A stretch of 44,820 nucleotides of DNA, from assembly GCA_902386205.1 (NCBI GenBank), contig CABMIH010000025.1:1-44820 (forward strand), read 5' to 3'. A program made the translations under genes and the position numbers. The notes under the pieces are model-generated. The model searched no databases. It was not told the origin of the DNA and worked only from the letters and a program-made list of their open reading frames with translations. Below are positions 33,371 through 38,725 of this stretch, piece by piece. The number at the start of each line of letters is the position of its first letter. Positions within the stretch are counted from its first letter, which is position 1. Source of the DNA: an uncultured archaeon. Lineage in GTDB: Archaea > Halobacteriota > Methanosarcinia > Methanosarcinales > Methanoperedenaceae.

Positions 33371-33640
33371 GTGTCCCAAAATCCAGCCGATGTAATAAGG
33401 CAGTGTGTTGATGTACTGGAACGTATCGTCAACGACAACTCTGTTCCAAGAAACATCAGGCGCACAGCTGAAAATATGAGAACCACACTCTCCAATGAGA
33501 AAGAACCCCCATCAATGAGAGCTGCTATGGTGATCTCAAGGCTTGATGAAATCGGCAACGACCCCAACGTACCTATACATACGAGAACTCTGATCTGGGG
33601 GCTTTCAAGCCAGCTTGAGACCATACCTGTTGACAAGTGA
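33371..33640 (+). CDS. UPF0147 family protein
   Basis: 89 residues, all-helical, conserved only in archaea. Family core: [21 protein letters not shown] and [21 protein letters not shown] start at 33371 with SD GAGTGA. It lies just left of the origin repeats and shares the divergent promoter region 33291-33370 with the p27-type gene (TATA-like TTTTATAAAG at about 33341-33350). Function unknown. Confidence 0.9.
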
Positions 33641-33672
33641 TCGCCCAGGAACAGGAATAAACTGAAGCACCT

Positions 33673-33695
33673 ACCCCATTGTTTCGTATGGAAAC
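33673..33695 (-). repeat. ORB (reverse orientation)
   Basis: Minus strand reads GTTTCCATACGAAACAATGG then GGT. It matches the forward copies at most positions and is the only inverted copy, left of the AT-rich block. Confidence 0.75.
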
Positions 33696-33750
33696 AATGA
33701 TTTTTCTCTTTTCGGGTCTTTCTAGTCTGGAACCTGTACATTCGTGAGAA

Positions 33751-33860
33751 TACTTCGATTTCATGTTTTTTGTCTTTTATATGTTTTTTAAATTTTTACA
33801 ACGTTATTTTTATATTGATTAAAAAGCGAAATGTTTATATACAGTTAAAGCCAAGGAAGA
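33751..33860. other. AT-rich block, candidate duplex-unwinding element
   Basis: Almost pure A/T with long T and A runs (TTTTTTAAATTTTTAC, TTTTTATATTGATTAAAAAG), bracketed by oppositely oriented ORBs. Confidence 0.6.
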
Positions 33861-33912
33861 ACCCATTGGTTAGTTGTAATATCAATAAAAACCATACGAA
33901 TTGGTTATCCCG

Positions 33913-33935
33913 GTTTCCAGAGGAAACAAAGGGGT
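33913..33935 (+). repeat. ORB (forward copy 1)
   Basis: GTTTCCAGAGGAAACAAAGG then GGT. Best match to the euryarchaeal ORB consensus. Confidence 0.85.
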
Positions 33936-33952
33936 AGGTCTGCCATTCAGGC

Positions 33953-33975
33953 TGTTCCAGTGGAAATAAAGGGGT
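33953..33975 (+). repeat. ORB (forward copy 2)
   Basis: TGTTCCAGTGGAAATAAAGG then GGT, 40 bp after copy 1 in the same orientation. Confidence 0.85.
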
Positions 33976-34081
33976 GATGTCCTGAACCAATAGAAATACC
34001 TGAATCATGATGGAAGGAAACGTGCAAAAAACCAGGTTTTAGCGACTGAATAATTAAACCAAATCCCCCGTTATTCTGGCA

Positions 34082-34104
34082 GAATCCAAAGGAAACAAAG
34101 GGGT
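34082..34104 (+). repeat. ORB (forward copy 3)
   Basis: GAATCCAAAGGAAACAAAGG then GGT. It lies 33 bp upstream of the nearest possible cdc6 start and may allow autoregulation. Confidence 0.85.
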
Positions 34105-34166
34105 CGCCACCAAAAGTCTTAATACCTTTCCTTCCATTGCATCAAGTGCTAAGGAGGGTCGAAGTA

Positions 34167-35408
34167 TTGGATATAGGAACTGCATCAATAAAAGGTATCT
34201 TCGAGGATATGCTATCGATAGTGAATATCTTCGAGAATAGAGAGGTTCTTCGCTCGACATATACGCCTGATTATCTTCCTCACAGGGACGACCAAGTAAA
34301 AGGATTGGCAACGATCCTGGTTTCTGCTCTCAGGGGAGAAACACCGTCCAATGTTTTAATATATGGAAAGACCGGGACAGGTAAAACAGCAGTGGCGAAA
34401 CATGTTGGGAAGGAACTTGAAAGGACCGGCGAATTATACGGCATACCGTGCGTTGTTATTTATATAAATTGCGAAGTAGTGGATACCCAGTACCGCCTGC
34501 TGGCATCTCTTGCCAGGCAGTTCGGGAAGGAAATACCAATGACGGGATGGCCCACGGACCAGGTATATTCAGAATTCAAGAACGCCGTGGATTCAGATAG
34601 GCGCATTGCAATAATAATGCTTGACGAGGTGGACAAGCTCGTTGATAAAGGGGATGACGTGCTGTATAATCTCACACGGATAAACTCAGACCTTAAAAAG
34701 GCAAAGGCGAGTCTCATAGGTATAACCAATGATTTGAAATTCACGGATTTCCTGGATCCAAGAGTGAAAAGTTCACTCGGGGAGGAAGAGATAATATTCC
34801 CGCCATATGATGCCAACCAGTTAAGGGATATCCTTCAGGAAAGGGCCAAAATGGCATTTAAACCCGGCGTGCTTGAAGACACAGTAATCCCGCTTTGCGC
34901 AGCATATGCTGCACAGGAGCACGGGGATGCAAGAAGAGCTCTTGATCTTTTGCGTGTATCCGGGGAAATTGCGGAGCGGGCTAAGTCCACAAAAGTGCTT
35001 GAAACCCATGTAAAACAGGCCCAGGAAAAAATCGAGACTGACAGGATAGTTGAAGTGGTCAAGACCCTTCCGACACAATCAAAACTGGTTTTACTGAGCA
35101 CTGTCCTCCTGTGCAAGAACGGTGATAGCAATCTCACAACAGGGGAAGCCTATAATGTTTACAAACAGATGTGCCGGATAATAGGAATCGAGGTACTGAC
35201 GCAGCGGAGGGTGACGGACCTGATATCAGAACTTGATATGCTGGGCATACTCAATGCAACAGTTGTGAGCAAGGGCAGGTACGGGAGGACCAAGGAGATA
35301 TCTTTGAGCGTCCCGACGGAAAGCACGAGCAAGGTGTTATTTGAAGACTACAGGCTGAAACCTCTTGAGGAATACAGGCCGCCGACACAGGCAAAGTTAT
35401 ACGCCTAA
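34167..35408 (+). CDS. cdc6: Orc1/Cdc6 replication initiator
   Basis: 413 residues from a TTG at 34167, chosen because the SD AAGGAGGG (34151-34158) lies 9 nt upstream; the frame is open from 34137. AAA+ ATPase with Walker A GKTGTGKT, Walker B IIMLDEVD, sensor 1 GITNDL, sensor 2 HGDARRALDLL, and a C-terminal winged helix (about 330-400) that binds ORB. It recruits MCM at the adjacent origin. Its 3' end overlaps by 12 bp the convergent signal peptidase gene. The three forward ORBs lie directly upstream. Confidence 0.96.
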   Translation: MDIGTASIKGIFEDMLSIVNIFENREVLRSTYTPDYLPHRDDQVKGLATILVSALRGETPSNVLIYGKTGTGKTAVAKHVGKELERTGELYGIPCVVIYINCEVVDTQYRLLASLARQFGKEIPMTGWPTDQVYSEFKNAVDSDRRIAIIMLDEVDKLVDKGDDVLYNLTRINSDLKKAKASLIGITNDLKFTDFLDPRVKSSLGEEEIIFPPYDANQLRDILQERAKMAFKPGVLEDTVIPLCAAYAAQEHGDARRALDLLRVSGEIAERAKSTKVLETHVKQAQEKIETDRIVEVVKTLPTQSKLVLLSTVLLCKNGDSNLTTGEAYNVYKQMCRIIGIEVLTQRRVTDLISELDMLGILNATVVSKGRYGRTKEISLSVPTESTSKVLFEDYRLKPLEEYRPPTQAKLYA

Positions 35409-35972
35409 TATTTTTCTGGGAATAAGCGAAACATATCCAAGCAATGGAACCCGGTAAAACCGGGCAACCCCTATTACCCATTCTTTTTTTACCGGCTGGT
35501 TGAAACTTATGCTTCCCTGCTGGTCATACGATGGATTCGTTTTCAGGTTATCCCCTTTTGTAATATAGCCTGGATACGGTGCCGCGAGCCCGCCCGGCCA
35601 CATTGGCTCTCCAGTTTCCACATAATACCTGGCGCGGTGGATGATAGGAGTAACCCCTTCCCTGCCATAGGGTTTATAAAGGATCACATCACCGTAATCC
35701 CCAAAAGATGTATAACCGCTCCCTTTTCCTTTTTCGTAAGTTGTTATATTTGTGCGGTCGATACTCTCGACAAAAATGATATCCCCTATCTGGATATTCG
35801 GTATCATGCTGCCGCTTTCCACGGCTACCATCGGAGCCCATAGCCCGAAAACGATATGAGAGATGGTAGCAAAGATTGCTACGACAAAGATAACAGTTAG
35901 AAAATCCCGTACAATCCCCACCCAAAAATTTTCGCTTTCATTAAATTCTTTTATTTTATCCTTTATATGCAT
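35397..35972 (-). CDS. Signal peptidase I (archaeal/ER type), third of tandem triplet
   Basis: 191 residues. Membrane-bound S26 protease with N-terminal helix (about 22-44) and cytoplasmic charged start (MHIKDKIKEFNESENF). Catalytic Ser55 in VESGSMIP, catalytic His112 in PIIHRA in place of the bacterial Lys, and Asp141 in TKGDN, as in ER Sec11. It ends in a hydrophobic segment (LLGYVSLIPRK). Nearly identical in layout to the two genes upstream. Probably cleaves signal peptides of exported proteins. Confidence 0.92.
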   Translation of the reverse strand: MHIKDKIKEFNESENFWVGIVRDFLTVIFVVAIFATISHIVFGLWAPMVAVESGSMIPNIQIGDIIFVESIDRTNITTYEKGKGSGYTSFGDYGDVILYKPYGREGVTPIIHRARYYVETGEPMWPGGLAAPYPGYITKGDNLKTNPSYDQQGSISFNQPVKKEWVIGVARFYRVPLLGYVSLIPRKILGV

Positions 35973-36032
35973 GAACAGAACCTAATATCCAGAAGAAAGT
36001 ATAAAGTTTTGGGTGGATAGGAATAGGAAAAG

Positions 36033-36623
36033 TCAAATACCCAGAGTCTTCCTCGGAATAAAGGTAATATAACCCAGGATAGGTACCCGATAAAATCGTG
36101 CAGCCCCAATGACCCATTCCTTTTTTACCGGTCTGCCCTCACTTGTATTTCCCGGCTGACCATGGCAAATGTTCCACTGGACGTCAAGCAGGTTGTTGTT
36201 GTCACCTTTTGTGATATAGCCGGAATAAGGAGCCGGAGGACCTCCAGACCACATTGGCTCTCCTGTTTCAACGTAAGCCATGGCCCTGTGTATTATCGGC
36301 GTAACACCTTCCTTTCCGCACTTTTTGTACAGAATAACGTCGCCGTAATTGTCAAAGGTCTTATAATCAATCTGTTTTCCCTTATTATATGTGATTATTT
36401 GAGTCCGGTCGATACTTTGAACAAATATGATATCACCTACCTGCATATGAGGTGACATGCTCTCGCTTTCGACAGCGACCGCAGGTGACCAGCGCCCCAG
36501 GGAGATATATGATACAGATGCAAAGATAGCCACTACAGAAATCACGAAGAGAAAGTCTCTTAATAGTCCAATCCAATAATTCTGGCTGTTCTTGAATTCT
36601 TTTATTTTATCCTTTATACTCAT
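36033..36623 (-). CDS. Signal peptidase I (archaeal/ER type), second of tandem triplet
   Basis: 196 residues from ATG 36623 (MSIKDKIKEF), chosen because the SD AGGAT lies 8 nt upstream and the start aligns with its neighbours; ATG 36629 is possible. Catalytic Ser is in VESESMSPHM (changed flanking residues), His in PIIHRA, Asp in TKGDNN. A longer loop after GDNN, with Cys in WNICHGQ, distinguishes it from the other two copies. 12 nt upstream lies the stop of the first copy. Confidence 0.92.
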   Translation of the reverse strand: MSIKDKIKEFKNSQNYWIGLLRDFLFVISVVAIFASVSYISLGRWSPAVAVESESMSPHMQVGDIIFVQSIDRTQIITYNKGKQIDYKTFDNYGDVILYKKCGKEGVTPIIHRAMAYVETGEPMWSGGPPAPYSGYITKGDNNNLLDVQWNICHGQPGNTSEGRPVKKEWVIGAARFYRVPILGYITFIPRKTLGI

Positions 36624-36641
36624 ATGCATGGATCCTATATC

Positions 36642-37202
36642 CTATAATATCTTCCTGGGTATGAGCGAGATATACCCCATCAGAGGAATGCGGAAAAATC
36701 GTGCAATTCCAATGACCCATTCCTTTTTTACAGGCTGGTTCTTACTTATGCTCCCCTGCTGGTCAGATAAAGCGTTGTTATCTCCTTTTGTAATATAGCC
36801 TGCATGCGGTGCCATGGGCCCGCCCGGCCACATCGGGTATCCTGCTTCCACATAGTACCTGGCTCGGTGGATGATAGGGGTACTGCCCTCCTTGCCAAAT
36901 TTCCTGTATAATATCACGTCGCCATAATCCCCGAAAGAAGCATAATCCGTTTCCTTTCCTGTAGAGTAAGTAATTATTTCGGTACGGTTGATACTTTCAA
37001 CAAAAACGATATCCCCTATCTGGATATTCGGTATCATGCTGCCGCTTTCCACAGCGACCATGGGGGCTGCGCGCCCGAGGGCGAGATAGGATGCAAGGGA
37101 AAAGATCGCCACGACCGTTGCCATGAAAAGAAAATCCCGTACAATCCCTACCCAGAAATTTTCACTTTCATTGAATTCTTTTATTTTAGCCTTTATATGC
37201 AT
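36642..37202 (-). CDS. Signal peptidase I (archaeal/ER type), first of tandem triplet
   Basis: 186 residues. Ser in VESGSMIPNI, His in PIIHRARY, Asp in TKGDNN. The loop after GDNN is the shortest of the three. N-terminus MHIKAKIKEFNESENF nearly matches the third copy, while parts of the body match neither neighbour exactly, consistent with duplication followed by divergence. It is divergent from the DP1 gene; the intergenic region 37203-37300 holds both promoters. Confidence 0.92.
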   Translation of the reverse strand: MHIKAKIKEFNESENFWVGIVRDFLFMATVVAIFSLASYLALGRAAPMVAVESGSMIPNIQIGDIVFVESINRTEIITYSTGKETDYASFGDYGDVILYRKFGKEGSTPIIHRARYYVEAGYPMWPGGPMAPHAGYITKGDNNALSDQQGSISKNQPVKKEWVIGIARFFRIPLMGYISLIPRKIL

Positions 37203-37300
37203 TTACATGAATCCTATATCTGAATAAAGTATAAATGTTTGCCTGCTTGACAATGTACCGAGGAAAATCTTATCTCATTTCACAGATATAAGTTCTGGTT

Positions 37301-38725
37301 ATGGAGACTGGTGATATAATCCAGATTTTTGCACAATCTGGATTCCAGGTTGACCCGCAAGCGCTGGATATTTTACGAAGCGGATCGCCTGAACTGATAA
37401 ATAATATATTAAGATCAATAGATAGTTCGGTCCTTGTAGTGGGAAAAGAGCATATAAGGCAGGATAAAATCGAAGAACCGGCAAGAACCCCGGACATTGT
37501 AAAACCTCTAAAAAGCAAAACCATTCAAAGCCATGTTACAGTGCTTTCAGACATAACGAACCAATCAACCTGTATCGGGGAATACGTCGATTTCGTGCAG
37601 TATTTCAGAGATCGCTACAGTTTGCTGGGCGACCTGTTGAGAAAAAGAGTAAGTGCAAGACCGATTGAAAGCCTAAAAAAAAGAAACATGGATGGAAGGG
37701 AGGAACTCTCTATCATCGGCATGGTACTGGATATAAGGACAACCGCCAAAGGGCATAAACTGATAGAGGTAGAAGATCCATCGGGAACTATACCTGTCCT
37801 GATCCACAAGGAAAAGGATAAGGAGCTTTTTAAACTGGCCGGATGTATTCTCCAGGATGAGGTAGTGGGAGTGACGGGCACGCTGTCCAGCGATGGCGGT
37901 CTTATGTTCGCAAACAGGATAATCTGGCCTGATATTCCAGGCACTTTTAAAACTACATTGGACGGGAAAAAAGAAGGAAAGGCCGTGTTCATATCAGATA
38001 TCCATGTAGGCAGCAAGACTTTTCTTGAAGACGCCTGGCTAAAATTCGTTGACTGGCTCGGGGATGATATCAGTTATCTTGTTATCGCAGGGGATGTGGT
38101 GGACGGGATAGGGGTGTTCCCAAACCAGGACAAGGAGCTTGCGATTCTGGATATTTACGAACAATATGAAAAGGCGGCCGGGTACCTTAACGCAGTGCCG
38201 GGTCATATTAAAATTATCATATCACCGGGAAATCACGATGCTGTGAGGCAGGCCGAACCGCAGCCGCGCTTCCCTGAAAGAATAACCAGGATGTTCAGGA
38301 ACGACATAACATTTGTAGGAAACCCGGCCCTCGTGGAAATAGGCGGTGCAAAGGTACTTATTTACCACGGAAGGTCGATGGACGATATTATTGCAAGTAT
38401 CCCTGGTTTTTCTTACAACGACCCGACAAGGCCAATGCATGAGATGCTAAAGCTGCGGCATCTTTCACCCATATATGGTGGCAGGGTATCTATTGCGCCT
38501 GAAAAAAAGGATCATTTTGTGATTGACCCGATACCTGACATCCTTCACTGCGGACACGTCCATACAGTCGGGGTTTCACGTTATAAAGATGTATTAGCCA
38601 TCAATAGCGGCACATGGCAGAGCCAGACGGAGTTCCAGAAAAGAATGAACCTTAAACCCATGCCGGCCAGGGCTACGGTTGTTGATCTTGCAGATATGAA
38701 ATATACCATCATGCCTTTTAATTAA
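37301..38725 (+). CDS. polB: DNA polymerase D small subunit (DP1), Mre11-like exonuclease
   Basis: 474 residues. DP1 is the 3'-5' proofreading subunit of archaeal PolD. The N-terminal part (1-70) is helical; an OB-fold follows at about 140-225 (LSIIGMVLDIRTTAKGHKLI and IPVLIHKEKDKELF). The calcineurin-like phosphoesterase domain runs from about 226 to the end: ISDIHVGSKTF, VIAGDVVDGIG, ISPGNHDA and HCGHVHTVGVSRY. All metal-binding motifs are present. The exonuclease gene begins 2 nt after its stop. Confidence 0.96.
   Translation: METGDIIQIFAQSGFQVDPQALDILRSGSPELINNILRSIDSSVLVVGKEHIRQDKIEEPARTPDIVKPLKSKTIQSHVTVLSDITNQSTCIGEYVDFVQYFRDRYSLLGDLLRKRVSARPIESLKKRNMDGREELSIIGMVLDIRTTAKGHKLIEVEDPSGTIPVLIHKEKDKELFKLAGCILQDEVVGVTGTLSSDGGLMFANRIIWPDIPGTFKTTLDGKKEGKAVFISDIHVGSKTFLEDAWLKFVDWLGDDISYLVIAGDVVDGIGVFPNQDKELAILDIYEQYEKAAGYLNAVPGHIKIIISPGNHDAVRQAEPQPRFPERITRMFRNDITFVGNPALVEIGGAKVLIYHGRSMDDIIASIPGFSYNDPTRPMHEMLKLRHLSPIYGGRVSIAPEKKDHFVIDPIPDILHCGHVHTVGVSRYKDVLAINSGTWQSQTEFQKRMNLKPMPARATVVDLADMKYTIMPFN

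Follow-up and report, generated by a model that had tools for sequence, protein, structure and literature searches.

What is the stretch of DNA between positions 33641 and 34166, where four copies of a repeat stand directly upstream of a cdc6 gene in an uncultured archaeon? The window, meaning the whole stretch of 44,820 nucleotides that was analyzed, is the entire contig C25 of a 2.79-Mb genome in 88 contigs, and that genome was examined by sequence-model and pattern searches. An earlier note on the DNA had read the site as the chromosomal origin of a "methane archaeon," with the classical arrangement of ORBs. The named relatives of this cdc6, at 87 to 98% identity, belong almost all to Candidatus Methanoperedens. 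Therefore, the host is an ANME-2d methane oxidizer, in agreement with the note. We conclude that in this Candidatus Methanoperedens archaeon the site is very probably a chromosomal replication origin of the oriC1 type, a reading supported by sequence, layout, gene context, and genus-wide conservation.

Sequence and layout of the cdc6-adjacent ORBs

As proposed from the letters alone, one inverted and three direct ORBs lie upstream of cdc6 (Table 1). We scored them on a 29-position ORB matrix derived from 96 distinct sites that adjoin cdc6 in the genus. The four reach 39.0, 35.2, 33.0, and 27.9 bits on a matrix whose training included these same sites. No other site in the window exceeds 10.6 bits, and 1 Mb of Markov control sequence, taken on both strands, yielded one site of at least 15 bits. 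All four core matches named in the earlier note are real, but the core is exact in just two: in a pattern search of the window, GGAAACAAAGGGGT was found unchanged at 33922-33935 (+) and 34091-34104 (+), whereas the copy at 33962-33975 (+) differs from it at one position and that at 33673-33686 (-) at two. The direct copies share 90 to 95% identity across 20 nt, and complementarity between the inverted arms (33669-33695 and 33913-33939) is 89% across 27 nt. The core reads TTTCCA-n3-GAAAY-AAA-GGGGT, and the ORBs of this site fit the TTCCA-n3-GAAAC-n3-GGGG organization expected of archaeal oriC1-type origins. Across the AT-rich block the inverted ORB is turned toward direct ORB1. Both are extended by GGGGTAGGT, an extension common to most inverted ORBs in the genus. 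Searches with the site gave no match in Rfam or among PLSDB plasmids, and two ORB-derived patterns had no exact match in IMG/VR contigs.

Table 1. Features of the proposed origin, its neighbors, and ORBs elsewhere in the same genome (G000)
Feature	Position	Strand	Remarks
UPF0147 / stationary-phase-response family gene	33371..33640	+	Left border of proposed origin; NF003319, NF053638, PF03685
Inverted ORB TTTCCATACGAAACAATGGGGT, then AGGT	33673-33694	-	Present in 26/26 genus loci
AT-rich block, candidate duplex unwinding element	33695..33913		71% A+T overall; 82-85% at 33760-33839
Distal CATYGGTTTT-type repeat CCATTGGTTAG	33863..33873	+	-49 to -55 from ORB1, 25/25 loci
Proximal CATYGGTTTT-type repeat GAATTGGTTAT	33898..33908	+	-13 to -17 from ORB1
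Direct ORB1 TTTCCAGAGGAAACAAAGGGGT, then AGGT	33914-33935	+	Matrix and pattern match
Direct ORB2 GTTCCAGTGGAAATAAAGGGGT	33954-33975	+	Weak or missing in few relatives
Direct ORB3 AATCCAAAGGAAACAAAGGGGT	34083-34104	+	Matrix match; abuts cdc6 promoter-like block
BRE/TATA-like block ACCAAAAGTCTTAATACCTTTCCTTCCATTGCA of cdc6	34108..34140	+	25/25 loci; putative promoter
orc1/cdc6 initiator gene	34167..35408	+	TTG start; Shine-Dalgarno-like AAGGAGGG just upstream
DNA polymerase II small subunit (DP1) gene	37301..38725	+	NF003118, 620.8 bits (cutoff 445)
Second orc1/cdc6	L012 1501-2553 = G000:C9:65087-66139		28% identity to first
Dispersed ORBs	C4:11690, C4:11901, C9:12732, C15:11516, C74:6455, C75:2776		
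Family A elements	L095 7732 = G000:C9:12732; L097 2775 = G000:C75:2776		Weak ORB, ~164 bp, CATCATTATnATnAnnATnATAATTTA, strong ORB
Family B	L096 6453 (G000:C74), L098 7510 (G000:C15)		AAATGTATATnAT + AT-rich stretch before ORB; also in G005, G007, G008
C4 locus, between TusA and 175-aa gene	L094 7688-7928 = G000:C4:11690-11926		Two strong + two weak ORBs

The layout is not peculiar to this contig. One inverted ORB, together with direct ORBs at about -250 and -85 and usually at -213, recurs in all 26 genus cdc6 loci examined. A few loci have a weak -213 copy or none. The inverted ORB lies at about -420 to -580 in most loci and at -834 in G014; in G010 it reads -651, a value counted from a cdc6 match that begins inside the gene. 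Since all 26 loci share this layout, the site is very probably oriC. The gene at its right is an ORC1-type initiator (NF001625, 670.7 bits; cutoff, 501), whose best relatives in PDB are 2qby chain A (Cdc6 homolog 1; E 1.9e-120) and 2v1u (7.7e-113). About 2 kb downstream of cdc6, within a shared replication-gene neighborhood, lies the DP1 gene. Three tandem signal-peptidase-like genes, recognized by inspection, adjoin cdc6 on the minus strand at 35397-37202.

GC skew, a check named in the earlier note, proved a weak test. In the window the cumulative minimum falls at 37282, 3 kb from the origin, and there is no clear switch. In the first 400 kb of a 546-kb contig of the relative G014, the origin falls within a wide local trough, and the global minimum lies elsewhere.

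The AT-rich block, its paired repeat, and the putative cdc6 promoter region

In the block from the inverted ORB to the first direct ORB, A+T content is 67 to 84% in every genus locus measured, and the ORBs flank an AT-rich block here as the earlier note had described. A pair of direct repeats precedes ORB1 in all 25 loci compared. ACATYGGTTTT stands about 50 bp upstream of ORB1 and AATYGGTTTT about 15 bp upstream, and the two are spaced 33 to 38 bp apart. In several loci both copies vary jointly (for example, ATGGG/ATGGG in L023 and AATGG/AATGG in L014). Such joint change, counted here over related genomes, is as expected if a single protein reads both copies. At the other end, a BRE/TATA-like block, ACCaAAAGTCTTAATACC, stands at an invariant distance from the ORB nearest cdc6 in 25 of 25 loci. 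Because this spacing does not vary, the earlier suggestion that the ORB next to the start may autoregulate cdc6 is strengthened; the spacing supports occlusion of the presumed promoter by Orc1 at ORB3, and it is what such occlusion would require, short of proof.

By analogy with oriC1 of Sulfolobus, Pyrococcus, and the haloarchaea, we infer binding, melting, initiation, and autoregulation at this site. Orc1/Cdc6, the product of the neighboring gene, would bind the four ORBs with a fixed polarity. The two facing ORBs with GGGGTAGGT ends would then set two MCM helicases on the AT-rich block and open it, and Orc1 bound at ORB3, against the putative cdc6 promoter, would probably limit its own transcription. 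In Sulfolobus islandicus, both DUE-flanking ORBs are required in vivo (PMC12141716).

We compared the site with known origins. Haloarchaeal oriC1 and oriC2 are likewise AT-rich, flanked by ORBs, and beside cdc6; no halophile-type G-string was identified at the Methanoperedens origin, and its extra ORBs are scattered through the genome, not set downstream of the origin. Replication genes lie near Pyrococcus oriC, as they do here. The Pyrococcus ORBs also stand directly upstream of cdc6 (PMC4010727), but their number and spacing differ from those described here, and initiation in Pyrococcus has been mapped experimentally. Sulfolobus/Saccharolobus oriC1 (Orc1-1) is next to orc1 and has inverted ORBs flanking an AT-rich DUE, within which lies a further conserved motif, ucm (PMC12141716). 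Here, in contrast, there are four ORBs, three of them direct, and the paired CATYGGTTTT at the DUE edge takes the place of ucm, which it recalls by position although the sequences are unlike. The least expected result lies outside the window: the presence of dispersed ORBs.

A second orc1/cdc6 and ORBs away from the origin

A search for other cdc6 copies and ORBs, also named as a check, turned up both. One other orc1/cdc6 is present in the genome, on contig C9, and several ORBs lie on other contigs. The product of the C9 gene matches the Pfam winged-helix domain weakly, below the cutoff, and roughly 1.5 kb scanned upstream of the gene holds no ORB-like site. It is possibly a non-initiator paralogue.

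With the ORB sequence model, we found further strong ORBs away from cdc6 in the genus genomes searched. In a deeper search of eight genus genomes, the strong set extended to an E of about 0.05 and noise began at about 0.2, with a gap between them. Nearly all of the dispersed ORBs are intergenic or overlap only short ORFs; the L143 site has a conspicuously low A+T content and may lie in coding sequence. They sort into families by their flanks.

Family A carries CATCATTATnATnAnnATnATAATTTA right beside the ORB; this sequence includes the AT-rich dyad ATTATnAT-n4-ATnATAAT. In most cases a weak ORB also precedes the strong one by about 161 to 166 bp. A 63-nt model made from eight genomes matches all 31 genus genomes; in each, the top hit has an E of at most 3e-10 and there are one to three strong copies. 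The copies are mostly at two neighborhoods, the mcm/purM side and the 3' side of tatC or nearby. They lie 54 to 930 bp upstream of mcm in seven genomes (G000, G005, G007, G008, G009, G012, and G016) and in a different clade they adjoin purM. Sequence inspection and mutual tblastn, not a profile search, identified mcm, purM, tatC, and some other neighbors. A CTGCCCACTATCCTCCTT-like string occurs upstream of the weak ORB in L095, L109, L113, L140, and L142, at two different family A neighborhoods.

In all seven genomes compared, family C is flanked on one side by nitroreductase/TusA genes and on the other by a 175-aa gene that has no Pfam match. The ORBs of the C4 locus form an apparent tandem unit with spacings of 157, 55, and 157. 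An ORB of this locus is kept in seven of seven genomes compared and is followed by ACAGTTATTCACAGTTT in most; an Rfam search at the locus gave no match.

Alternatives and possible roles of the dispersed ORBs

Could the ORBs at cdc6 serve mainly as operators of that gene, with replication starting elsewhere or independently of an origin? ORB3 is tied to the promoter-like block, and Thermococcus kodakarensis is reported to replicate with neither Cdc6 nor its presumed origin (PMC5663688). However, just one of the four ORBs is at the promoter, and the conserved inverted ORB is some 500 bp away on the upstream side, past the AT-rich block, in a layout like that of proven origins. We therefore consider an operator role without origin use very unlikely. 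An accidental gathering of similar 14-mers has practically no probability left: it is refuted by scores of 28 to 39 bits against 10.6 for the runner-up and by a layout kept in 26 loci.

A further reading, which is compatible with oriC1, makes the site one of several chromosomal origins, the others being the dispersed ORB elements. Full ORBs in AT-rich surroundings on C4, C9, C15, C74, and C75, and the recurrence of family A in every genus genome (31 of 31), speak for it. However, none of the dispersed sites is beside cdc6 or was seen to have two ORBs facing each other over a long AT stretch, and where ORBs are paired the second one is weak; we regard this reading as rather unlikely. Because further ORBs exist elsewhere in the genome, we leave the wording "chromosomal origin" open to a second initiation site. 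With the oriC1-type origin as the preferred reading, Candidatus Methanoperedens, the host of Borgs and large plasmids, gains a precise predicted origin with testable parts, useful for read-depth growth-rate estimates and vector design.

The dispersed ORBs are real as sequence and would presumably be bound by Orc1. We tentatively propose, with slightly less than even confidence, that they form a second layer of Orc1/Cdc6 sites. These would be low-copy intergenic composite elements (weak ORB, about 157 to 166 bp, strong ORB), kept genus-wide at mostly set neighborhoods that include the mcm promoter side in one clade. They would serve to titrate the initiator or to regulate, coupling the expression of replication genes to origin firing, or they would be dormant origins that lack an initiator gene of their own. 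All three roles (titration, regulation, and dormant origins) are possible. A datA-like titration role would mean that these boxes lower the amount of free initiator; what the sequence shows is boxes away from the origin, in mostly conserved neighborhoods. The exact intergenic position of the elements shifts between clades. Bacteria regulate initiation through DnaA boxes spread over the chromosome. If Orc1 binds the dispersed ORBs, control of archaeal initiation by spread initiator sites becomes directly askable.

The idea of simple promoter operators is weakened because several dispersed ORBs lie between convergent genes (L133 and L135), and that of mobile elements is weakened by low copy number and conserved neighborhoods. 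Because most genomes hold two copies of the family A dyad, we set aside the possibility that it acts like dif.

There are precedents. An extra ORB cluster at Haloarcula oriC2 has been proposed as a negative regulator of initiation (PMC4010727), and Sulfolobus Orc1-2 is a transcription regulator, but with a different motif (PMC9738581). Isolated, unpaired ORB motifs away from orc1 have been tabulated for Ca. M. intestinalis of the Methanomassiliicoccales (PMC4153887); those are two sites in one genome, whereas here composite elements extend across a genus. A few ORBs outside the origin occur in other Methanosarcinales as well. At one site in the genus (L138 5123, G004:C17:11127), an ORB lies about 200 bp upstream of a radA-like gene and just behind an RPA-like gene, both recognized by inspection.
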